64,000 bases of DNA from Natronorubrum sediminis (GTDB lineage Archaea; Halobacteriota; Halobacteria; Halobacteriales; Natrialbaceae), in the NCBI RefSeq assembly GCF_900108095.1, contig NZ_FNWL01000005.1:1-64000 (forward strand), read 5' to 3'. Numbering within the stretch: position 1 is the first letter of the stretch; each line of letters begins with the position of its first letter. Below are positions 18,846 to 42,781 of the stretch, one piece after another. The position numbers and the translations under genes were made by a program. The notes under the pieces were generated by a model. That model made no database searches. It was not told the origin of the DNA and saw nothing but the letters and a program-made list of their open reading frames with translations.

Positions 18846-19694
18846 TCACTCCGAGTCATTTGAGTTCGGACCTCGGTCGAGCGTTCGACGGGCCTGCTCG
18901 TAGACGGGACGGTCGATCATTTGACCGTCGACTCGGACGACGCCGCCCTCGGACTCCTCGAACGCCTCAACGATCCGTTCGGCAGCCTCGAGTTCCGCTC
19001 GAGTGGGCGTGAATACGTCGTTGATTACGGACGTCTGTGCTGGGTGGATCGCACTCTTCCCGTCGTACCCCAGTCTTTTTGCCGTGAGCGCAGTTTCTCG
19101 GAGGCCCTCGGGGTCTTCGATGTCGATATAAACGGTATCTGTGGTGGTGATTCCAGCGGCCGCTGCGGCCATCACGATTCGCTGTCGTGCATACTGGAGT
19201 TCATCGCCGACGGTGACCGTCGCACCGACGGCTGCTGACAGATCTTCGCCGCCGAAGCCGAGGCCTGAGACGCCCGGACTCGACGCGATTTCGGGTGCGT
19301 TCAACACGCCTCGAGCAGTCTCGATCGATGCCCGAACCGATACCGACGAGCCACGATCGTCGAGTTCGGCCGTTACTGCACGGACGTCGCTCGCTCGGTC
19401 GACCATCGGTACGACGAGATACGCGGGATCACGGGGTCCGCCGATGATCGCGTTCAGATCGTCCGACCCGCCTGCGCTGAGTGGGTTCATCCGGACCCCG
19501 AGTCGGGGAGATCCCTCGCGAGCCGCGCTGTCGAGGAATCGGCACACCTCCTCGCGGGCCGTCGGTTTCGACGCAGGGGCCACAGAGTCTTCCAGATCGA
19601 GCGTCACCGCGTCCGCCTCGGTATCGACGGCCTTGCGCATCATTTCGGGCTCGTCACCCGGCGTGAACAGCGTCGATCGAGCTATCGAAGGCAT
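18846..19694 (-). CDS. CitE/HpcH-family C-C lyase (copy 1)
   Basis: The ATG at 19694 gives 282 residues beginning PSIARSTLFTPGDEPEMM. Conserved elements are DAVTLDLEDSVAP (metal-binding region), the Arg in LGVRMNPLS, SVRASIETARGVLNAPEIA with the metal Glu, and GYDGKSAIHPAQ. The family cleaves or forms (3S)-malyl-, beta-methylmalyl- or citramalyl-CoA. A second, diverged CitE-like gene lies at 39987-40898. This copy has no adjacent co-directional partner, so its substrate is open. A TATA element about 27 nt upstream fixes the start. Confidence 0.87.
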   Translation of the reverse strand: MPSIARSTLFTPGDEPEMMRKAVDTEADAVTLDLEDSVAPASKPTAREEVCRFLDSAAREGSPRLGVRMNPLSAGGSDDLNAIIGGPRDPAYLVVPMVDRASDVRAVTAELDDRGSSVSVRASIETARGVLNAPEIASSPGVSGLGFGGEDLSAAVGATVTVGDELQYARQRIVMAAAAAGITTTDTVYIDIEDPEGLRETALTAKRLGYDGKSAIHPAQTSVINDVFTPTRAELEAAERIVEAFEESEGGVVRVDGQMIDRPVYEQARRTLDRGPNSNDSE

Positions 19695-19715
19695 TCGAAA
19701 GGTAATCGGTGCGAA

Positions 19716-31955: not shown

Positions 31956-33176
31956 ATGCGATCGTCCGTTGCCCGCCGCCTCCATCCGCTCACGCGGCGG
32001 GCGAAGCACGCGTTGAACGACGGCCGGAGTCGAATCATTTTGGCCGTTGCCGCCGGGTGGTTCCTCTCGCTCGGCGTCCGAATGGTCTACCCGGTGTTAT
32101 TACCCCACATTCGCACCGCGTACGGACTCGATCTCACAGTCGCTGGGTTCCTGCTGACCGTTCTGTGGGCCGCGTACGCGATCGGACAATTTCCTGGAGG
32201 TATCGTTACCGATCGAATCGGTGAACGGATCACGCTCGCGGTTAGTACGCTTCTTGCGGGAATCATGCTCGTCTTGGTCGTCACGGCGGGTTCCGCGCTC
32301 GTCGTGTTCGTTGCGACCGCGCTGTTCGGTCTCGGTACCGCACTGTACGGCGTTGCCCGGTTCACGATCATCTCGAAAACGTACCCGGAAAACAACGGTG
32401 CCGCCATCGGCGTCACGCTAGCGGCCGGCGACCTCGGAAACGCGGTGCTACCCGTGATCGCCGGTGCGGTCGCGGCGACCTTCGTCTGGCAGCTTGGACT
32501 CGGATTCGTCGTCCCGCTGTTCGCACTCGTGAGCGTGGTCCTCTGGTTCGTCGTTCCCCGGCACACCCCCGACGGCGACGGCGATGGAATGGTGGTCTCT
32601 CTCGAGATGGCCCGGCACGTCGTTTCGGAACTTCAGCGACGGTCGATCGTTGTCGTGACGTTAATACTGATCCTCGGATTCAGCATCTCACTCACGCTTA
32701 CGGGGTTCTACCCGACGTACCTGATCGAAGAGAAGGAGCTGTCGTCAACGGTCGCGGCAGCGCTGTTCAGCCTGTACTTTGCCCTCGGGGTCTTCGTCAA
32801 ACCGCTGGCTGGATCGGCATACGATCGGTTCGGAATTCGACAAACCCTCCCCGTGATCTTCGGTCTGGCGATTACGGCACTCCTGGCCCTCTCAGTCGTC
32901 GAGTCGCTGTGGGCCCTCGTGGCGGTCACCGTTCTGTTGAGCAGTCTGCTCGGTAACATCGCGGTCACGATGCCCTACCTGACCGATTTGCTCCCGACGG
33001 AAATTCAGGGGACGGGACTCGGCGTCCTGCGGACCACGTACATGTTGATCGCCGCACTCAGTCCGTCACTCTTCGGAGTGCTCGCCGACTTCGGATACTT
33101 CGACGAGGGGTTCGTCCTGTTGGCCGGAATCGCCGGCGTGATGACGCTGCTCGTTCTCCTTTTACCGTCGCAGTGA
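31956..33176 (+). CDS. Major facilitator superfamily transporter
   Basis: The protein has 406 residues and 12 predicted spans. The loop 2-3 motif reads GGIVTDRIGERITLAVST, close to the MFS motif A (G-x3-D-R-x-G-R). VFVKPLAGSAYDRFGIRQT in the second half repeats it. It is a secondary carrier of the metabolite/aromatic-acid type by general appearance. A TATA-like acataag lies about 26 nt before ATG. It is the second uptake system of the island besides TctCBA, and is followed by the MmgE/PrpD gene. Confidence 0.88.
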   Translation: MRSSVARRLHPLTRRAKHALNDGRSRIILAVAAGWFLSLGVRMVYPVLLPHIRTAYGLDLTVAGFLLTVLWAAYAIGQFPGGIVTDRIGERITLAVSTLLAGIMLVLVVTAGSALVVFVATALFGLGTALYGVARFTIISKTYPENNGAAIGVTLAAGDLGNAVLPVIAGAVAATFVWQLGLGFVVPLFALVSVVLWFVVPRHTPDGDGDGMVVSLEMARHVVSELQRRSIVVVTLILILGFSISLTLTGFYPTYLIEEKELSSTVAAALFSLYFALGVFVKPLAGSAYDRFGIRQTLPVIFGLAITALLALSVVESLWALVAVTVLLSSLLGNIAVTMPYLTDLLPTEIQGTGLGVLRTTYMLIAALSPSLFGVLADFGYFDEGFVLLAGIAGVMTLLVLLLPSQ

Positions 33177-33274
33177 ACTGACGACGGCGCCCGTTCCGAC
33201 GCGTTCACTCGCGCCACCGGACGGCAGTGCCGGAGCCGGTGATTCTATTAGTTCGATCATTGTTGGTTGGTAGC

Positions 33275-34642
33275 ATGGGTCAACAAGCTGTCGACCAGCG
33301 GTCTTCCGAAACTGAATTGGCATCGTTCGTGTCCGGGCTTTCGTACGAATCGATTCCCGACGAAGGAGTCCGGCTCGCGGAACGGTGTTTCGTAGACACG
33401 GTCGGAGTGACGATCGCCGGCGCCGTCGGCGAGGCGGGATCGACTGCGGCGGCCGCGGTCGATCAGACGTCGTCCGACGACGGCGTGCGACTCGTCGGTC
33501 GCGACGCGACCGCGTCGGTGACCGACGCCGCCTTCGTCAACGGAACGGCCGGACACGGACTCGACTTCGACGATGTCTCGAGTGGTATGCAGGGACATCC
33601 GAGCGTAACGATGGTACCGGCGCTGCTCGCCGTGGGTGAGTCCGAAGACGCGACGGGTGAAGAGTTACTGACGGCCTTCGTTGCCGGATTTGAAACGCAG
33701 TGTTACCTCTCGGGGCCGCTCAACCCGGACCACTATGAGAGAGGATGGCACGCAACGGCGACCCTCGGCACGTTCGGCGCGACAGCAGCGGTGACCAATC
33801 TGCTCGGCCTCAGCGAGCGAGAAATTCGTCACGCGCTGTGTGTCGCCGCGTCGTTCCCCGCCGGTCTCAAGCGAAACTTCGGCACAACGACGAAACCGAT
33901 ACACGCCGGCGCTGCCGCCAGGTCGGGGGTGACCGCGGCTCGGGCGGCCGCGAACGGTGCAACCGGCGACGAACGCGCGATCGACGGCCAGAAAGGCTTC
34001 TTCGAACTCTACAGCGGACCCGATGGCCCCGACCTCGAGGAACGGTACGACCTGGGAGAACGGTGGGCGATCGTCGACGACGGCGTCGGCGTGAAAAAGT
34101 ATCCGTGCTGTTACTTCACACACTCGGGAATCGCGTCCGCCGAAGAACTCGCTGCTACCCACGACATAGAACCCACTACCATCGAATCAGTCGGCGTCAC
34201 CCTCTCGCAGGGCGCAGCCGACGCGCTCCACCACGCGAATCCCGACACCGGACTCGAGGGGAAGTTCTCTATCCAGTATACGCTCGCCAACATGATCGCC
34301 CGGGGTCGAGTCGGACTCGCCGCGTTCGACGACGAAAACGTCGACGACGAAGTGGTTCAGATGGTTAGGGAGCGTATCACCGCAACCGTCGATTCCGATC
34401 TGCCGTACGGCTCTCATCGAACGACCGTTAGTATCGAGACCGCCGACGGAGACGAGTACGAAAACGTACTCGAGGAACCTCCGGGCACGCACGAGAACCC
34501 GCTCTCGAACGAGGAACTACGCGAAAAATACCTGATGTGTGCGACGAGAGCGTTCGACCGCGAACGGGCTGTCGAAACCTACGACCGACTCGACGATCTT
34601 CGTAACGAATCGGACACCGCCGATCTGGCCCACCGTCTCTGA
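33275..34642 (+). CDS. MmgE/PrpD family protein (2-methylcitrate dehydratase or cis-aconitate decarboxylase type)
   Basis: ATG 33275 gives 455 residues, close to family length. Motifs are GHGLDFDDVSSGMQGHPSV, RGWHATATLGTFGA, NFGTTTKPIHAGAAARSG and KKYPCCYFTHSG, which carry the conserved Asp, His and Lys of the active site. Known members dehydrate 2-methylcitrate, decarboxylate cis-aconitate to itaconate, or act on related carboxylates. Adjacent C5-type CoA enzymes make an itaconate- or methylcitrate-related role attractive, but this is inference. It converges with the seven-gene minus operon, with 21 nt between the stops. Confidence 0.85.
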   Translation: MGQQAVDQRSSETELASFVSGLSYESIPDEGVRLAERCFVDTVGVTIAGAVGEAGSTAAAAVDQTSSDDGVRLVGRDATASVTDAAFVNGTAGHGLDFDDVSSGMQGHPSVTMVPALLAVGESEDATGEELLTAFVAGFETQCYLSGPLNPDHYERGWHATATLGTFGATAAVTNLLGLSEREIRHALCVAASFPAGLKRNFGTTTKPIHAGAAARSGVTAARAAANGATGDERAIDGQKGFFELYSGPDGPDLEERYDLGERWAIVDDGVGVKKYPCCYFTHSGIASAEELAATHDIEPTTIESVGVTLSQGAADALHHANPDTGLEGKFSIQYTLANMIARGRVGLAAFDDENVDDEVVQMVRERITATVDSDLPYGSHRTTVSIETADGDEYENVLEEPPGTHENPLSNEELREKYLMCATRAFDRERAVETYDRLDDLRNESDTADLAHRL

Positions 34643-34663: not shown

Positions 34664-35734
34664 TTAAAGGCGAGCCGCGACCGCCGCGATCAGTTCGTCC
34701 GTCGTGCTCGATCCGCCCTGGTCTGGTGTGAGCGCGACACCCTCGAGGTAGACGCGTTCGATCGCATTTTGAAGGGCTTTCGCCGCCGATTCTCGCTCGA
34801 GATACTCGAGTAACATCACGGCTGACAGGAGCGTCGCTGTCGGATTTATCGATGACTCGCCCCGCAGGTCGGGGGCCGTCCCGTGGACCGGTTCGAAGTA
34901 CGCGCTTTCGGGCCCGTAGCAACCGCTCGGGGCGAGACCGAGACCGCCGACGGTACCCGCTGCCACGTCGGAGAGCAAGTCCCCGGCGAGGTTCGGAGCG
35001 ACGAGCACGTCGAATCGCTCGGGATCGGTCACGAGCAACTCGCCGACGGCGTCTGCATGAACGTGTTCGTACTGGGTCGACGAGTCGGCTGCAACGGATT
35101 CGACCGTCCGTTCGAACAAGCCGTCAGTCTCGGGGAGAACGTTCGATTTCGTCGCACAGGTCAATTGGGGCACGGTATCCTCGTTGCTCCGCCGTTCGGC
35201 CAGATCGCAAGCGAAACGTGCGAGCCATCGGACCTGTACTGCCGTGATCGGCCGGAGTGCATAGCGGCCGTCGGTCATCGATACATCACGATCGAGACCG
35301 TGAGAGTCCGCGGGCGGGACGAGGCCATCGAGGTCCGCGATATTCCCCTCGATTCCGGCGTAGAGCCCCTCGAGGTTCTGTCTAACGACGACGTAGTTGA
35401 TCTCATCTGTGTGCTCGAGAGGCGAGGCCGCTCCCTCGAGCGACCGTACCGGCCGGGCGTTAGCTGGCAGTCCGCCGTCGAGTTCGTATCGGAGATATCG
35501 CAGAATCGGGACGTGTCTGTCAGACGCCGCGCCGAAGAAGACGGCGTCGGCGTCGTCGATTCGTTCTCGGAGCGGATCTGGGATGTCTCCGCGATCAAGG
35601 ACATTGGCGAACTGTTCGACCGACGGCGTCTCGAACCGAATTTCCGGGACTAGCGACTCGAGTAGCTCCACCGTCGGCGCGACGGCCTCCGGCGCGGCAC
35701 CGTCGCCCTCGAATACGCACACACTGGTCGTCAT
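34664..35734 (-). CDS. Isopropylmalate/isocitrate/malate dehydrogenase family enzyme
   Basis: ATG 35734 gives 356 residues. The beta-decarboxylating dehydrogenase signature is complete: LRYLRYELDGGLPANARPVR (substrate Args), VVVRQNLEGLYAGIEGN, CATKSNVLPETDG (catalytic Lys), the Asp set in NLAGDLLSDVAAG and EPVHGTAPDLRGESSINPTA. Family members oxidise 3-isopropylmalate, isocitrate, D-malate, tartrate or 3-methylmalate with NAD. It sits at the end of a CoA-dicarboxylate operon rather than next to leuCD, so a catabolic substrate such as 3-methylmalate or D-malate is more likely than leucine synthesis. It starts 7 nt after the SDR gene. Confidence 0.86.
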   Translation of the reverse strand: MTTSVCVFEGDGAAPEAVAPTVELLESLVPEIRFETPSVEQFANVLDRGDIPDPLRERIDDADAVFFGAASDRHVPILRYLRYELDGGLPANARPVRSLEGAASPLEHTDEINYVVVRQNLEGLYAGIEGNIADLDGLVPPADSHGLDRDVSMTDGRYALRPITAVQVRWLARFACDLAERRSNEDTVPQLTCATKSNVLPETDGLFERTVESVAADSSTQYEHVHADAVGELLVTDPERFDVLVAPNLAGDLLSDVAAGTVGGLGLAPSGCYGPESAYFEPVHGTAPDLRGESSINPTATLLSAVMLLEYLERESAAKALQNAIERVYLEGVALTPDQGGSSTTDELIAAVAARL

Positions 35735-35741
35735 CGTGCGA

Positions 35742-36512
35742 TCACCCGCTACCCGGACGTTGTGGGACGCCCTCGGCGGTGTACGTTTGTCCGTCGACGT
35801 AACTGGCACCGGGAGAAACGAGGAAGCACGTCAGATCCGCGATCTCGTCTGGGTGGCCGAGCGTCCGGTCGACGGCGTCTCGGTCGACGGTCTCGGCAGT
35901 GAGGCCGCGATTCTCTTCGACGCCGGGGGTGGCAACCAGACCGGGACGGACGCAATTGACGCGGACGTCGCGTTCGGCCCACTCCATCGCGAGCGAGCGA
36001 GAGAGCGCCTCGATCCCGGCCTTCGAAGCCGAATAGTGAGCGCTCTCGGTGGTTCCATCGCGGCCGATGACGCTGCTCATCGTGACTACGCGCCCGGTGT
36101 TGGCGGCCGCGAGTGCGTCGGCGAACGCGTGGCAACAGCGATACGTCCCGTCGAGATTGATGTCGACGATCGTCCGCCATGCGTTCTCGCTCAGCTCCGT
36201 GACGGGAGCGTGGAAATTCGCACCAGCGTTTGCGATCAGCATCTCGACGGTCCCGTCGCCGAACGCCGTCGCCCGCTCGGCGAGTCGTTCAACCGCCTCG
36301 ACGTTTCGCACGTCGACCGTAACGTCAAGGACATCGCTCCCGGTTTCCGATTCGATTTCGTCGGCGACGGTCGCGAGGTCTCCGCTCGAGCGGGCGGCAA
36401 CGACGATGTCGGCGCCACACGTGGCCAGTCGGTGGGCGATCGAGCGACCGAGGCCCCGGCTCGCACCGGTGACGACGGCAGTCTCGCCTTCGAAGAGGTC
36501 GTCTTGATACAT
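35742..36512 (-). CDS. Short-chain dehydrogenase/reductase in the C5 operon
   Basis: ATG 36512 gives 256 residues. TAVVTGASRGLGRSIAHRL binds the cofactor, IANAGANFHAP is the NNAG equivalent, SSVIGRDG carries the Ser and HYSASKAG the Tyr-Lys. Position between the CoA-transferase and the LeuB-like dehydrogenase places it in the minus-strand operon (57 nt and 7 nt gaps). It could oxidise a hydroxy acid intermediate. A short frame extension upstream to 36566 is unlikely. Confidence 0.88.
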   Translation of the reverse strand: MYQDDLFEGETAVVTGASRGLGRSIAHRLATCGADIVVAARSSGDLATVADEIESETGSDVLDVTVDVRNVEAVERLAERATAFGDGTVEMLIANAGANFHAPVTELSENAWRTIVDINLDGTYRCCHAFADALAAANTGRVVTMSSVIGRDGTTESAHYSASKAGIEALSRSLAMEWAERDVRVNCVRPGLVATPGVEENRGLTAETVDRDAVDRTLGHPDEIADLTCFLVSPGASYVDGQTYTAEGVPQRPGSG

Positions 36513-36569
36513 CGACAGCGAACGATGCGGGGCCGAGTGTGGAAAAAGTATGGGTAGTGGTAACAAGGG

Positions 36570-37811
36570 CTACTCGATCGTGCCGTAAACACCCTCGTCG
36601 AGGAGGTCGTCAATTTCGTCGTCAGAGAATCCCTGTTCGCGGAGGATCTCTTCAGTGTGTTCGCCGAGGAACGGGGCTCGTCGCTCGACACCGCTGTTGC
36701 TCTCGGGAAACTTGATCGGTGTTCCGGCGATTGTGGCAGTTTCACCGGTATCAGCGTGATCGACCTCGGGGAGCATCTTCCGGGCCTGGAAGTGCTCGTC
36801 CTCGAAAATGTCTTCCGCGTCGTTGACCGGCCCACACGGGACATCGTCGGCGAGCATCTCGAACAGTTCGTCTTTCGTGTGCCGCTTCGTCCACTCCGTG
36901 ACGATTTCGCGGAGTTCGTCTGCCGATTCAATGCGATCGAGTTTCTCAGCGTACTCGTCGGCGAGATCAGGACGGTCCATGTGGTCGCACAGGGATCGCC
37001 ACTGGTGGGCCGAGGGCGCAGCGATGACGACGTAGCCGTCGTCGGTCTCGAAGCGATCGAACGGGAACAACAACGGATGGGTGTTTCCCTGCGGACCGGG
37101 GATATCGTCGGTAAACGAGTGTTGATGAACGATCCGCTCGGATAGGGAGAGTACCGCGTCGACCATTCCGACGTCGACGTACTGCCCCTCACCGGTACGA
37201 TCCCGTTCGCGCAGCGCCGACAGCACTCCGACCACCGCGAGCGTCGCGGGGAAGATGTCACCGACGCCGGGACCAACCTTGGTCGGACCGGCTTCTTCGG
37301 TACCAGTGATACTCATGACGCCGCCCATCGCCTGCGCGATGAGGTCGAACGCGGGCCGGTCAGCGTGCGGGCTCTCTCCCCCTCTCGGGTCACCGAATCC
37401 GCGAATCGACGCGTAGACCAGTCGGGGATTGCGCTCCGAGAGCGTCTCGTAGGAGAGATCAAGCTTCTCCATCGTCCCCGATCGGAAATTTTCGATCACA
37501 ACATCGGCGTTCGAGACGAGGTCAAGGAACGCCTCGCGACCCTCCGCGGACTTGAGATCGACAGCGACACTTCGTTTGTTTCGGTTGACGCTGTGAAAGT
37601 AGCCGCCGTAGGCCTCGTCCTCCTCAAGGTGTGGCTGGTTTTGTCTGGTCATGTCACCGTGTGGAGGTTCAACCTTGACGACATCCGCTCCGAGATCGGC
37701 GAGCAGCATCGTCGCATACGGTCCAGCGAGCATCTGCGTGAGGTCAACGACGAGTACATCGGCGAGTGGGCCGTTCGAGACAGGCACGTTTCGGGTGGGT
37801 TTCTCGGACAT
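36570..37811 (-). CDS. CaiB/BaiF family III CoA-transferase
   Basis: This 413-residue protein begins with LADVLVVDLTQMLAGPYATM and LLADLGADVVKVEPPHGD, the family III start. IENFRSGTMEKL and the catalytic-Asp motif RPAFDLIAQAMGGVMSITG (Asp near residue 176) are intact. These enzymes move CoA between carboxylic acids, for example succinyl-CoA to mesaconate, itaconate, citramalate or carnitine. With a CitE lyase, MaoC proteins and an acyl-CoA dehydrogenase as operon partners, a succinyl-CoA:C5-dicarboxylate CoA-transferase is the best inference. The gap to the upstream MaoC-B is 17 nt. Confidence 0.9.
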   Translation of the reverse strand: MSEKPTRNVPVSNGPLADVLVVDLTQMLAGPYATMLLADLGADVVKVEPPHGDMTRQNQPHLEEDEAYGGYFHSVNRNKRSVAVDLKSAEGREAFLDLVSNADVVIENFRSGTMEKLDLSYETLSERNPRLVYASIRGFGDPRGGESPHADRPAFDLIAQAMGGVMSITGTEEAGPTKVGPGVGDIFPATLAVVGVLSALRERDRTGEGQYVDVGMVDAVLSLSERIVHQHSFTDDIPGPQGNTHPLLFPFDRFETDDGYVVIAAPSAHQWRSLCDHMDRPDLADEYAEKLDRIESADELREIVTEWTKRHTKDELFEMLADDVPCGPVNDAEDIFEDEHFQARKMLPEVDHADTGETATIAGTPIKFPESNSGVERRAPFLGEHTEEILREQGFSDDEIDDLLDEGVYGTIE

Positions 37812-37828: not shown

Positions 37829-38308
37829 TCAGTCATCATCGTAATACTCGTGTTTTTTCAGCAGAACACGCTTGGTTGCGCCAACGACCTGCTCGTCGTC
37901 TTGGTTGAAGCCGCGGACTCGGAACTCGACGACGCCGCCGTCGGGGCGCTCGTCGGAATTACGCTTCGAGAGTACCTCGCTCTCGGCATAGAGCGTATCG
38001 CCGTGGAAGACGGGATTACTGAATCGCACCTCGTCGTATCCGAGTTCGGTGATCGCGTTCTCGGAGATGTCCTCAGAGGCGAGTCCGCAGACCATCGAGA
38101 GATTGATCCCCCCGTAGACGATTCGCTCACCGAACTCCCGGTCTTCCATCTGATCCTCGTTGAAGTGACCCTGAGCGGTATTCAATACGAGGTTCGTGAT
38201 GGCGACGTTGTCCATCTCGGTGATCGTCTTCCCGCGAGTGTGTTCGTAGATCTCACCGACGCCGAAGTCTTCGTAATAGTTGTGGTTGCTCGTTCGGCCC
38301 ATGATCAT
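37829..38308 (-). CDS. MaoC-like hot-dog hydratase, subunit B (catalytic-type half)
   Basis: This 159-residue single hot-dog protein has NYYEDFGVGEIYEHTRG, then TITEMDNVAITNLVLNTAQG and HFNEDQ, then ERIVYGGINLSMVCGLASED. The Asp of EMDN and the His of GHFN match the Asp/His dyad of R-specific enoyl-CoA hydratases. From memory, the NTAxxHF to VYGG segment resembles the C-terminal half of two-domain mesaconyl-CoA hydratases. MaoC-A (39468-39983) resembles the N-terminal half. The start overlaps the acyl-CoA dehydrogenase stop by 4 nt. It probably pairs with MaoC-A. Confidence 0.83.
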   Translation of the reverse strand: MIMGRTSNHNYYEDFGVGEIYEHTRGKTITEMDNVAITNLVLNTAQGHFNEDQMEDREFGERIVYGGINLSMVCGLASEDISENAITELGYDEVRFSNPVFHGDTLYAESEVLSKRNSDERPDGGVVEFRVRGFNQDDEQVVGATKRVLLKKHEYYDDD

Positions 38309-39471
38309 GACCCCGATCCGGTTGCGTGTACGCCTCGTTCGAAGAGCCGATCGGCGATAACTCGCTGTTGGATCTCGCTTGTCCCTTCGAAAATCTTCGT
38401 CAGTCGGGCGTCTCGCCAGTATCGCTCGAGCGGGTAGTCGGTTGTGTAGCCGTTGCCGCCGTGGATCTGAATCCCTTCGCTGGTGACTTCCTCGGCCATC
38501 TCGCTGGCCTGATACTTCGCCATACAGGCTTCCATATCGCAGCGGTCGCCCTGTTCTTTCTGGTGGGCGACGTAATGGGTGAGCTGACGGGCCGACTCGA
38601 TCTTCGTCGCCATCGTCGCCAGCTTGAATCGGATCGACTGGAACTCGCCGATCGGCTGATCGAACTGTTGGCGCTCCTGTGCGTAGTCCAACGAATCCTC
38701 GAGCGCGCCGCGAGCGAGGCCGATCGCTCTAGCAGCGGTGTGGATCCGCGCCGGTTCGAAGAATTCCATGATGTTGTAGAACGCTTGGCCCTCTTCACCG
38801 CCGATGAGTTTGTCCTCAGGAATTCGGACGTTGTCGAGGTGAAGTTCCCACGTCTCCCAGCCCTTGTAGCCGATCTTGTCGAGAGAGTTCGCCTCGAGGC
38901 CGTCGACGTCGAACTCGCCGGGAGTCTTGTCGATAATGAACGAGGAAACTCCCTTGTGGCGTTCGTCGGGATCGGTCTTCGCGTAGACGACGATGAAATC
39001 CGCTCCCTTGGCGAACGTACACCACGTCTTTTGTCCGTCGATTTCGTACTCGTCTCCGACTTTCTCGGCAGTCGTGGTCATGCCGGCCACGTCACTGCCG
39101 GCCCCCGGTTCGGAGATGCTCGTCGCCTGAAGGCGCTCTCCACGGACCATGTCGGGGACGTACTCTTCTTTCTGTTCCTCGGTGGCACCGTGGAGGTTCT
39201 GCCCACGAGCAATGATACTTGCGACGCTCATCCAACCGCGTGAGAGTTCCTCGGCGACGACGGCGTACGCCAACGGCCCCATATCGAGGCCACCGTACTT
39301 TTCCGGACCCATAATTCCGAAGTAGCCCATTTCGCCGAGCTTAGTGATGAGTTCGTCACTCATTGGTTCTCCCTTCGGATCGCGTTCGTTTGCCTCGGGC
39401 AAGACTTCGTTCTGGACGAACGCTCTCGTCTCGTCGCGAAGCATCTTCAGTTCGTCGTTCAGGTAGGTCAT
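38305..39471 (-). CDS. Acyl-CoA dehydrogenase
   Basis: This 388-residue flavoprotein has the full family layout. Motifs are ATSISEPGAGSDVAGMTTTA, TWCTFAKGADFIVVYAK, the central barrel, QPIGEFQSIRFKLA and IHGGNGYTTDYPLERYWRD, ending KIFEGTSEIQQRVIA with the usual catalytic Glu. The length matches ordinary homotetrameric enzymes and is shorter than bacterial methylsuccinyl-CoA dehydrogenase of the ethylmalonyl-CoA pathway (N-terminal extension missing). Within this operon oxidation of methylsuccinyl-CoA or another dicarboxylyl-CoA is the best guess. It overlaps MaoC-A and MaoC-B by 4 nt on either side, so the three are tightly coupled. Confidence 0.9.
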   Translation of the reverse strand: MTYLNDELKMLRDETRAFVQNEVLPEANERDPKGEPMSDELITKLGEMGYFGIMGPEKYGGLDMGPLAYAVVAEELSRGWMSVASIIARGQNLHGATEEQKEEYVPDMVRGERLQATSISEPGAGSDVAGMTTTAEKVGDEYEIDGQKTWCTFAKGADFIVVYAKTDPDERHKGVSSFIIDKTPGEFDVDGLEANSLDKIGYKGWETWELHLDNVRIPEDKLIGGEEGQAFYNIMEFFEPARIHTAARAIGLARGALEDSLDYAQERQQFDQPIGEFQSIRFKLATMATKIESARQLTHYVAHQKEQGDRCDMEACMAKYQASEMAEEVTSEGIQIHGGNGYTTDYPLERYWRDARLTKIFEGTSEIQQRVIADRLFERGVHATGSGS

Positions 39472-39983
39472 GGTTCGGATTCCTCTTGGTGAGATCGTTT
39501 GTTGATCAGGTTCTTTCGCTCGAATTCGACGACTAGATCGCCGTTGGGTCGCGTCCCCGTCGTTTTCCAGTGAACAATCCCCTGGTGCGGTCTGGACTCG
39601 CTTTCTCGTTTTGAGACGACTTCGCTGTCGGCGTACAGGGTATCACCGGGGTAAACGTCCTCGTGGAATTTGAGGTTGTCAATTCCGAGGAAGGCACCAC
39701 CCGCCTCGCTCAGGTCCTGGACACTCATTCCGAAGACGATATTGAACGCGAGTAAGTGGTTAGCAACGACGCCGTCGTGACCCAGATCCTCGGCGTAGTC
39801 TGCGTTGAAGTACATCGGGTTTGCATTGATAGTCAGTGTCGAGAACAGACTGTTGTCGCCCTCAGTAATTGTGCGACCCCAGTGATGTTCGAACTCTTGG
39901 CCGGAATCGAAATCCTCGAAGTAGTTGATCTTCTCCACTCGCTTGCGCTTTGGATCGTCCGACACGGGCTCTTCTCGTGACAT
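39468..39983 (-). CDS. MaoC-like hot-dog protein, subunit A (His-less half)
   Basis: This 171-residue single hot-dog protein reads INYFEDFDSGQEFEHHWGR, TITEGDNSLFSTLTINANPM, LLAFNIVFGMSVQDLSE and YPGDTLYADSEVVSKRESES. The Asp of EGDN is kept, but the position of the catalytic His (usually NPLH) is Tyr in NPMYFN. That pattern and the LLAFNIVFG run resemble the N-terminal, non-catalytic half of fused mesaconyl-CoA hydratases. It lies 3 nt after the CitE gene and overlaps the dehydrogenase gene by 4 nt. I infer that it forms a heteromer with MaoC-B. Confidence 0.82.
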   Translation of the reverse strand: MSREEPVSDDPKRKRVEKINYFEDFDSGQEFEHHWGRTITEGDNSLFSTLTINANPMYFNADYAEDLGHDGVVANHLLAFNIVFGMSVQDLSEAGGAFLGIDNLKFHEDVYPGDTLYADSEVVSKRESESRPHQGIVHWKTTGTRPNGDLVVEFERKNLINKRSHQEESEP

Positions 39984-39986
39984 GGT

Positions 39987-40898
39987 TCAGTCGATCATTC
40001 CGATCTGGCGTGCGCGCTCGAGCGTGTTTCGGGCTTTGCGCGCGGAGGCTTCGTCGATCATCTCGCCGTCGACCCGGACAGCACCGAGACCATCCTCGAC
40101 GCCCTCGTCCATCGCGTCGACGACCTTCTGGGCGTGGTCGACGATCTCGTCTTCCGGCTTGTAGGCCTCGTTGGCGATCTCAATCTGACTGGGATGGATC
40201 GCCCACTTACCGACGAATCCGAGCGTATTCGAGCGAATGCACTCCTCTCGGTAGCCTTCTGGATCCGAAAAGTCTCCGTACGGTCCGTCGATCGCGTCGA
40301 GGCCGTTCGATCTAGCCGCGACGACGATCTGATTTCGGACGTAGTGCCAGATGTCGCCGGGGTAGTTCCCCTCGTCACCGTGTGCACCGATGCTCTTGAG
40401 TTGTACACCCTGCGAGGCGGAATAGTCTCCCGGCCCAAAGATGAGCGCCTCGAGTCTGTCACCGGTTGCAGCAATCTCGTCGACGTTCTGGAGCGCTTCC
40501 GTCTCCTCGATCAGCGTCTCGATTCCAATCGTGTTCTCGATATCGTGATTCGCCTCGATCTGGTCCAACAGCGTTTCCACGGTGTAGATATCGCCAGCCC
40601 GCTTGATCTTTGGAACGATGATCGTATCGATGTGTTCGCCGGCACCTTCAACGACTGTAACGATGTCGCCGTACGCGTTGGGCGTCTCGAGGTCGTTGAT
40701 GCGTACTGCGACCACCTTGTGGCTCCAATCGAACTCGTGGATCGCGTCGACGATTTTCTCGCGAGCTGGTTTCTTTTCAGATGGTGCAACGGCGTCCTCT
40801 AAATCAAGCATAACCTCATCAGCATCGGACTCCGCTGCCTTTTCCATCATTTTCATACTACTGCCTGGAGTCGTCAATTCGCTTCGCCTAGTCCGCAT
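39987..40898 (-). CDS. CitE-family lyase, beta-methylmalyl-CoA/malyl-CoA lyase-like (copy 2)
   Basis: This 303-residue protein begins MRTRRSELTTPGSSMKMMEK and has EVMLDLEDAVAPSEKKPARE, VVAVRINDLETPNAYGD, TIIVPKIKRAGDIY, IGIETLIEETEAL and KWAIHPSQIEIANEAYKP. The RRSELTTP start and the KIKRAGD region recall Mcl-type beta-methylmalyl-CoA lyases more than citrate lyase beta subunits. The reaction would split beta-methylmalyl-CoA to glyoxylate and propionyl-CoA, or citramalyl-CoA to pyruvate and acetyl-CoA. It is the first gene of the seven-gene operon with a clear promoter. Confidence 0.88.
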   Translation of the reverse strand: MRTRRSELTTPGSSMKMMEKAAESDADEVMLDLEDAVAPSEKKPAREKIVDAIHEFDWSHKVVAVRINDLETPNAYGDIVTVVEGAGEHIDTIIVPKIKRAGDIYTVETLLDQIEANHDIENTIGIETLIEETEALQNVDEIAATGDRLEALIFGPGDYSASQGVQLKSIGAHGDEGNYPGDIWHYVRNQIVVAARSNGLDAIDGPYGDFSDPEGYREECIRSNTLGFVGKWAIHPSQIEIANEAYKPEDEIVDHAQKVVDAMDEGVEDGLGAVRVDGEMIDEASARKARNTLERARQIGMID

Positions 40899-41967: not shown

Positions 41968-42759
41968 TCACCGCGAATGCGACTCGGAAAAGTTGATGTT
42001 AAGTTCGAGTTCGTTCGACGCACCCAGGAGAACCTCCGGAAGTTTGGAATTTAATCGCTCACCTCGCATCCGGTGAGTCGGACCTGAAATGCTGATCGCA
42101 CCGATAACGGTTTCGTCCGGTCCGATCACGGGTACACCAACGGCGTAAAGTCCGTCAATATGTTCTTCCCTGTTTATCGCATATCGACGTTCACGGATTT
42201 CCTCGAGGTCGTCCAGTAACTGTTCTCGATCCTGAATCGTATTGTCGGTGATTTTCGACATTCCCCAGTAGTCGAGAACCGCATCGCGGCGGTCGTCGGA
42301 GAGAAAGGCCAAAATCGATTTCCCCGCAGCCGTCGCGTGGAGTTGCGCGCCGCCGAGTTGGCCGACGGACGTGCGCGATTTGACCGCTCTGTCCCCCTCA
42401 GCGATATGAACGTACACCGAGTGCCCGTGTTCTTCGGCGACGAACTGTACCCGTTCGCCTGTTGATTCGGCGAGTTCTTCAACGACCGGCTTTGCTTCCT
42501 CGAAGCCGGGCCGTTGGCGCTTGACGAACTCGCCGAAGTTAAGAAATTGTAACCCGAGGTGGTATTCATCGTCCCGTTTGACGATGTAGTGGTTCCGCTC
42601 GAGAGTAACCAAGTGATTGTGTAGCGTGCTTTTCGGTAAATCAACTTGATTGGCGATTTCGGTGAAGGTCCCGCCGTTTATCTCTCGGAGAACGTCGAGC
42701 ACACTGAGCGCTCTATCGATCGCTCGAACGGGGCCATCTTGTGTGTGTTCTGGTATCAT
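41968..42759 (-). CDS. IclR-family transcriptional regulator (copy 1)
   Basis: ATG 42759 gives 263 residues. The winged helix-turn-helix is at about 15-70 (TFTEIANQVDLPKSTLHNHL), and the IclR effector domain follows, with AGKSILAFLS and GVPVIGPDETVIGAISISGP. IclR proteins bind small carboxylates or aromatic acids and control nearby catabolic operons. This one lies about 1.1 kb from the C5 operon promoter, the obvious target. A TATA box 28 nt upstream supports the second of two nearby ATGs as the start. Confidence 0.88.
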   Translation of the reverse strand: MIPEHTQDGPVRAIDRALSVLDVLREINGGTFTEIANQVDLPKSTLHNHLVTLERNHYIVKRDDEYHLGLQFLNFGEFVKRQRPGFEEAKPVVEELAESTGERVQFVAEEHGHSVYVHIAEGDRAVKSRTSVGQLGGAQLHATAAGKSILAFLSDDRRDAVLDYWGMSKITDNTIQDREQLLDDLEEIRERRYAINREEHIDGLYAVGVPVIGPDETVIGAISISGPTHRMRGERLNSKLPEVLLGASNELELNINFSESHSR

Positions 42760-42781
42760 ACCAATGAGTAACATCGACCAC

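Follow-up and report, generated by a model that had tools for sequence, protein, structure and literature searches.

Two half-size MaoC proteins of Natronorubrum sediminis as candidate subunits of a heteromeric counterpart of fused mesaconyl-CoA hydratase

For the haloarchaeal mesaconyl-CoA hydratase (Mch), a two-domain architecture and one-domain bacterial homologs have been described (PMC5592240). In the structure of MeaC, malate lies between the two halves: the C-half provides Asn226, His231, Tyr248 and Gly249, of which Asn226 and His231 form the catalytic dyad, and the N-half contacts the ligand through Phe71, Ser79, Asn85 (with its backbone) and Arg142 (PMC10164722). MaoC enzymes made of separate chains are known as well. 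HadAB/HadBC and ChsH1-ChsH2 each consist of two half-size MaoC subunits, one of them lacking the catalytic His, with one active site per dimer (PMC11321319). In Pseudomonas and Cupriavidus, a route over citramalyl-CoA to acetyl-CoA and pyruvate has been shown (PMC12290011).

The window analysed here, a stretch of 64,000 nucleotides, is part of a 245-kb contig in a haloarchaeal genome of 3.78 Mb. Its best matches among plasmid DNA are from Natrialbaceae and reach 94% identity with a segment of a Natronorubrum daqingense plasmid. Two half-size MaoC proteins, MaoC-A and MaoC-B, are encoded on either side of an acyl-CoA dehydrogenase (ACAD) gene (Table 1); this arrangement, reported by the first-pass annotation, was confirmed in its positions and in the overlap of exactly 4 nt at each junction. 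The three genes belong to a larger operon. The lyase gene, upstream of MaoC-A, ends 3 nt before it, and 17 nt separate MaoC-B from the start of a CaiB-type CoA-transferase gene, which is followed by a short-chain dehydrogenase (SDR) gene and an isopropylmalate-dehydrogenase-like gene. Beside the operon, the plus strand encodes an MmgE/PrpD protein and an MFS transporter; upstream of it is a gene for an IclR regulator. An SDR gene also follows the CoA-transferase gene in the Halomarina operon; no counterpart of the isopropylmalate/tartrate-dehydrogenase-like gene was found in the Halomarina locus.

Table 1. Genes of the MaoC-A/MaoC-B locus, in positions of the window
Feature	Positions	Strand	Remarks
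MaoC-A	39468..39983	-	171 aa; half-size; homologous to fused Mch N-half; Tyr58, Ser92, Arg156
Acyl-CoA dehydrogenase (ACAD)	38305..39471	-	388 aa; 41% identity to methylsuccinyl-CoA dehydrogenase 6es9
MaoC-B	37829..38308	-	159 aa; half-size; homologous to fused Mch C-half; Asn43-His48 dyad, Tyr65, Gly66
Class III (CaiB-type) CoA-transferase	36570..37811	-	best NCBIfam model succinyl-CoA:mesaconate CoA-transferase
CitE-like lyase	39987..40898	-	303 aa; nearest solved structures malyl-CoA/beta-methylmalyl-CoA lyases
Short-chain dehydrogenase (SDR)	35742..36566	-	same direction as operon
Isopropylmalate/isocitrate/tartrate dehydrogenase family protein	34664..35809	-	
MmgE/PrpD family protein	33227..34642	+	nearest solved structure IDS-epimerase 2hp0
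MFS transporter	31956..33176	+	adjoins PrpD gene
IclR-family regulator	41968..42774	-	best NCBIfam model BhcR

As the first-pass annotation had proposed, MaoC-A and MaoC-B matched different halves of fused Mch rather than the same one, and Pfam, PDB, profile-profile comparison and the tree agreed on this. On the Pfam model MC_hydratase (PF19315), MaoC-A aligned to positions 18-169 (123 bits) and MaoC-B to 223-352 (74 bits), and the two together supplied both hot-dog halves of the family. The best PDB match of each was fused Mch (8hgn, 4e3e), within which MaoC-A fitted domain 1 best and MaoC-B domain 2. Profile-profile scores against haloarchaeal Mch were 253 (N-half) and 73 (C-half) for MaoC-A, and 184 (C-half) and 110 (N-half) for MaoC-B. 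The highest scores of both (299 and 308) were obtained with single-domain relatives of the RipB/Ich type, which presumably work as homodimers; such half-size single relatives are common in haloarchaea. In Sphingomonas panacis, where the A and B genes are adjacent, fused haloarchaeal Mch aligned across both of them (residues 24-355, 35% identity). Neither protein reached the equivalog cut-off of NF041625 (560 bits; A 130, B 75), a whole-length threshold that a half-size protein could hardly attain. Mch joins its two halves in a single chain of about 350 aa; here their counterparts are encoded by two genes with the ACAD gene between them. Single-subunit structure predictions of A and B, with three sequences as input, were of low confidence (pLDDT 46 and 54).

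The genome carries a separate fused Mch (contig C1:235047-236090, 648 bits), and the idea that the pair stands in for an absent Mch was therefore rejected. With PF19315 at strict threshold, no fused Mch was found in the sampled Alphaproteobacteria; bacterial Mch are remote from that model. A single half-size MaoC gene occurs in a second, RipB-like cluster of the same genome (C4:73941-74393; L084 7882-8517, minus strand), where it is flanked by an acetyl-CoA hydrolase/transferase-type gene and an ACAD gene, with an IclR gene.

The first-pass annotation had noticed a Tyr in MaoC-A at the position of the catalytic His, and the His itself in MaoC-B. Both observations extended to the orthologs: the Tyr (Tyr58, NPMYFN) was present in 24 of 24 distinct A sequences and the His (His48, GHFN) in 21 of 21 distinct B sequences, so that the exchange in A is not a chance substitution. 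Its statement that fused Mch keep the His in the C-half only also proved right: the N-half position is occupied by Tyr in haloarchaeal Mch and by Thr or Gln in 4e3e and 8hgn, and the C-half has His in all of them. It was mistaken, however, about the hydratase acid. Alignment to MeaC identified the Asp of EGDN (A) and EMDN (B) as the wrong residue. The Asp of EMDN was variable among B orthologs (NLEN and PLEQ were seen), and the partner of the catalytic His is an Asn five residues before it, in B as in the single-domain relatives and the Mch C-halves.

Mapped on MeaC, the residues of MaoC-B are N43, H48, Y65 and G66, and those of MaoC-A are F84, S92 and R156. Equivalents of Asn226, His231 and Gly249 were found in 21/21 B orthologs, with Tyr or Phe at Tyr248 (21/21), and equivalents of Ser79 and Arg142 in 24/24 A orthologs. 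The Ser was lost in 19 of the 21 distinct B sequences, although the window's own B retains it (Ser82). Single-domain relatives have Asn, His, Ser/Thr and Arg all in one chain; the active-site set of MeaC is supplied by A and B jointly. At MeaC position 85, Phe was found in A (24/24) and in the N-halves of haloarchaeal Mch (5/5), Glu in B (20/21) and in the C-halves (5/5), and Asn in the single-domain relatives (13/13). The Phe and Glu residues give independent support to a link of A with the Mch N-half and of B with the C-half. In the sequences compared, the partition reads as complementary loss after duplication, from which one composite site per A:B dimer is predicted.

MaoC-A and MaoC-B probably combine into a single heteromeric (R)-specific enoyl-CoA hydratase, a two-gene counterpart of fused Mch. 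This assignment draws on half-by-half homology, residue partition, invariant pairing and the residues of the neighbouring enzymes, the last two of which are described below. A and B would pair as a hot-dog dimer whose single active site lies between them. The Asn43-His48 pair of B, together with Tyr65/Gly66, would activate water, and Ser92 and Arg156 of A would hold the free carboxylate of the substrate. MaoC-A alone would not be catalytic because of the Tyr in place of the His, and MaoC-B, having the full dyad, might be active alone or with another partner. Mesaconyl-CoA is a plausible substrate. We infer the physical A:B complex, the substrate and the direction of the pathway from these comparisons. 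Formally the pair is not an Mch, as it consists of two chains with a predicted activity.

The origin of the pair was addressed with a tree of 74 rows (LG+C20, 1000 ultrafast bootstraps). MaoC-A and the N-halves of haloarchaeal Mch formed one group (100/95), joined by the N-halves of bacterial Mch (99/94); MaoC-B and the C-halves of haloarchaeal and bacterial Mch formed another (100/99). An AU test rejected A and B as one clade (p = 0.0014), and with it MaoC-B as a recent tandem duplicate of MaoC-A. The N- and C-halves of haloarchaeal Mch as one clade were likewise rejected (p = 0.0047). Neither a clade of A alone (p = 0.465) nor one of B alone (p = 0.15) was rejected. The first-pass annotation had spoken of a split version of a normally fused enzyme: the homology to the two halves stood, but the AU test favoured neither fission nor fusion. 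Since A alone and B alone remained acceptable as clades, the pair could be derived: a fused haloarchaeal-type Mch would have split in two and the resulting genes spread, instead of Mch being the fusion of an older pair. We consider this course of events somewhat unlikely, because the haloarchaeal Mch halves nest inside the diversity of A and B in the best tree and because, in the samples searched, the pair is scattered over more phyla than haloarchaeal-type fused Mch, although neither argument is strong.

The pair is a conserved two-gene module. B lay just downstream of A in all 27 A loci found, with the ACAD gene between them in 15 and the two genes directly adjacent in 12; these loci come from two haloarchaea, many Alphaproteobacteria and Rhodococcus plasmids and include several close relatives, so not all are independent. 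Beyond the named records, taxonomic spread is resolved only to the class that was sampled. When 385 alphaproteobacterial genomes were sampled with a profile built from six A sequences, 18 of them gave hits, at 20 places in all; A proteins scored at least 190 and non-A proteins at most 154. In a separate search of 318 genomes with a B profile, 16 had matches, at 18 places in total. Each of these 16 also carries A, so that B never occurred without A among the 318. In haloarchaea, A orthologs are rare: among 391 sampled members of the class, the window's own was the only one, and a Halomarina plasmid carries an ortholog with 78% identity. The 27 paired loci exclude that the pair is peculiar to this genome. 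In Novosphingobium colocasiae, A and B are adjacent with a 4-nt overlap. In loci with directly adjoining A and B, the ACAD and PrpD genes were sometimes elsewhere in the cluster or missing; the pair thus persists while the genes around it vary.

The 24-kb plasmid p5 of Paracoccus sediminicola (L185) carries a complete A-ACAD-B-CaiB-lyase operon and a TRAP transporter. This plasmid was typed as conjugative, with the operon between ISPam3 copies, and Pseudosulfitobacter plasmids (L070) carry a closely similar operon. From these plasmids, the module looks mobile. On the Rhodococcus plasmids (L183 and L184, Actinobacteria), the A gene directly adjoins the B gene, and two Gly-Trp-type lyases and a PrpD protein are encoded close by.

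The identity of the ACAD to Paracoccus methylsuccinyl-CoA dehydrogenase extends over 376 positions. It retains the equivalents of Arg252, Ser248, Thr418, Arg421 and Glu535, all of which are present in 23 of 23 ACADs of A/B clusters; Arg252 is an essential residue of methylsuccinyl-CoA dehydrogenase (PMC5798300). The best-scoring structure was FadE3, which however has Gly for Arg252. The Arg376/Glu380 pair of PdMCD is absent from the ACAD, and Ala285 is missing in most orthologs. Among solved structures, the lyase matched malyl-CoA/beta-methylmalyl-CoA lyases (256 and 243 bits) better than RipC (117), whereas of two NCBIfam models, both short of their cut-offs, RipC_Ccl (190 bits) scored higher than haloarchaeal malyl-CoA lyase (133). 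The glyoxylate-pocket Trp of malyl-CoA lyase, which crowds the methyl group of pyruvate (PMC3832036), was found in 24/24 A/B-cluster loci with a lyase, and was absent from the compared lyases beside single MaoC genes. All 24 lyases also have Gly at MCL Ala167, an invariant Ala beside the acyl group in malyl-CoA lyases; the acyl side of the pocket would thereby be enlarged, and the natural acyl group may exceed propionyl. A second CitE-like lyase of another subfamily is encoded in the window at 18861-19715 (minus strand); it has Glu at the Ala167 position and lacks the Trp.

The CaiB-type CoA-transferase scored 557 bits against its best model, below the cut-off of 700. In the PrpD protein, the His and Tyr that are catalytic in IDS-epimerase are retained; the same two residues have been proposed for methylsuccinate isomerase (PMC12290011). 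The MFS transporter is a possible uptake system, and the isopropylmalate/tartrate-dehydrogenase-like protein a possible 3-alkylmalate dehydrogenase. Enzymes of the latter kind usually act on 3-substituted malates, the carbon skeleton expected of the A/B product. The IclR regulator matched BhcR, the regulator of the glyoxylate-assimilating beta-hydroxyaspartate cycle, with 158 bits (cut-off 350).

Neighbours resembling mesaconate CoA-transferase, methylsuccinyl-CoA dehydrogenase and malyl-CoA lyase suggest the breakdown of a methylsuccinate-like acid, with glyoxylate and propionyl-CoA as the likely products. The whole pathway that we infer would begin with a 2-alkylsuccinate, epimerised by PrpD, activated by CaiB to 2-alkylsuccinyl-C1-CoA and oxidised by the ACAD to 2-alkylfumaryl-CoA. 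Hydration by A/B would give 3-alkylmalyl-CoA, which the lyase would cleave to glyoxylate and an acyl-CoA, propionyl-CoA if the alkyl group is methyl. Three-gene forms without ACAD would begin at the unsaturated acid.

The main rival explanation retains one A/B hydratase but assigns it a C4-CoA ester: itaconyl-CoA or mesaconyl-C4-CoA would be converted to (S)-citramalyl-CoA and then to acetyl-CoA and pyruvate. The gene set of CoA-transferase, hydratase, CitE-like lyase, ACAD and MmgE/PrpD is that of the ich-mcd-mmgE-ict-ccl cluster (PMC12290011), and the NCBIfam models RipB_Ich (A, 133 bits; B, 128) and RipC_Ccl (the lyase) gave matches, all below cut-off. The lyases of A/B clusters, however, keep the Trp that those beside single MaoC genes lack and are nearer to malyl-CoA lyases than to RipC, the hydratase halves group with Mch in the tree, and the ACAD retains the Arg, Ser and Thr of the MCD type. 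Even so, the Trp is no strict bar, as malyl-CoA lyases can cleave or form citramalyl-CoA (PMC3832036). On balance we regard the C4-CoA route as rather improbable.

Returning to the glyoxylate-forming route, we advance as a doubtful proposal of wider scope that A/B would be the two-gene ancestor from which the haloarchaeal Mch of the methylaspartate cycle arose by fusion, its native role being an undescribed route from 2-alkylsuccinates to glyoxylate and acyl-CoA. The Gly of the lyase, where malyl-CoA lyases have Ala, is the reason to think of 2-alkylsuccinates possibly larger than methylsuccinate. It is very unlikely that A and B share no site, whether as separate homomeric hydratases retained within one operon or with A serving some other, non-catalytic purpose. 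In favour of this reading, half-size relatives that carry every residue in a single chain are frequent among haloarchaea and bacteria and are found in similar clusters, and B has a complete dyad. Against it, A is never lost although the catalytic His is missing in every ortholog, the active-site residues are apportioned between A and B in the same way as between the two halves of fused Mch, and B was found in no genome without A.

If the heteromeric hydratase is real, it would show how the double-domain enzyme originated: after duplication of a homomer, each copy held on to one half of the active site, and either fusion then joined the two or they remained separate genes. The pair would also be a natural system in which the two hydratase halves can be mixed, mutated and recombined singly. 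The locus further points to an undescribed operon, plasmid-borne across archaea and bacteria, that would turn methylsuccinate-like acids into glyoxylate and propionyl-CoA by a route other than the known one over citramalyl-CoA.

A two-subunit Mch was not found described in the open literature searched. To this extent, the claim of the first-pass annotation that such an enzyme would be new holds, but heteromeric MaoC enzymes with a His-less partner are known (PMC11321319), and the novelty of A/B is in the subfamily, not in the heteromer principle. A/B share with these enzymes two half-size subunits, one of them His-less and always co-encoded (27/27 loci), and ChsH2 even has Tyr for the catalytic His, as does MaoC-A. 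HadAB/HadBC and ChsH1-ChsH2, however, belong to another subfamily, act on fatty-acyl or steroid substrates and use an Asp-His dyad. In ChsH2, the His-less partner serves the binding of a bulky substrate, whereas the predicted role of the partner in A/B is carboxylate binding.

RipB/Ich (NF038241) is a half-size MaoC protein of the same family, clustered like A/B with a CoA-transferase and a CitE-like lyase. Unlike A/B, it is encoded by one gene, and each chain of the presumed homomer has the full set of Asn, His, Ser/Thr and Arg. The scores of A and B were far below its equivalog cut-off of 340 bits, and this one-chain set is broken up in them, A lacking the His throughout and B mostly the Ser (19/21, the window's B with Ser82 being an exception). 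The itaconate/methylsuccinate cluster of Pseudomonas and Cupriavidus contains the same enzyme types, MmgE/PrpD and ACAD included, but has a single hydratase gene and follows the C4-CoA/citramalyl-CoA route, whereas the A/B lyase looks glyoxylate-type. Proteobacterial and Chloroflexus Mch (MeaC; 8hgn, 4e3e) have a composite site at the interface of two hot-dog folds, with the residues divided as predicted for A/B: the Asn-His dyad in the C-half, as in B, and Ser and Arg in the N-half, as in A. They differ in being fused, in forming deeper branches and in having Asn at position 85 of the N-half; in the two PDB sequences, the N-half has neither His nor Tyr, unlike A. Haloarchaeal fused Mch (Hah_1340 type; PF19315, NF041625) shares with A/B the fold family, the order of the halves, Tyr for His and Phe at MeaC position 85 in the N-half, and NTAxxH and Glu at 85 in the C-half. 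It is, however, one chain of about 355 aa acting in the methylaspartate cycle, whereas A/B are two proteins in another operon; the two systems show about 34-35% identity across the pair and occur in the same genome.
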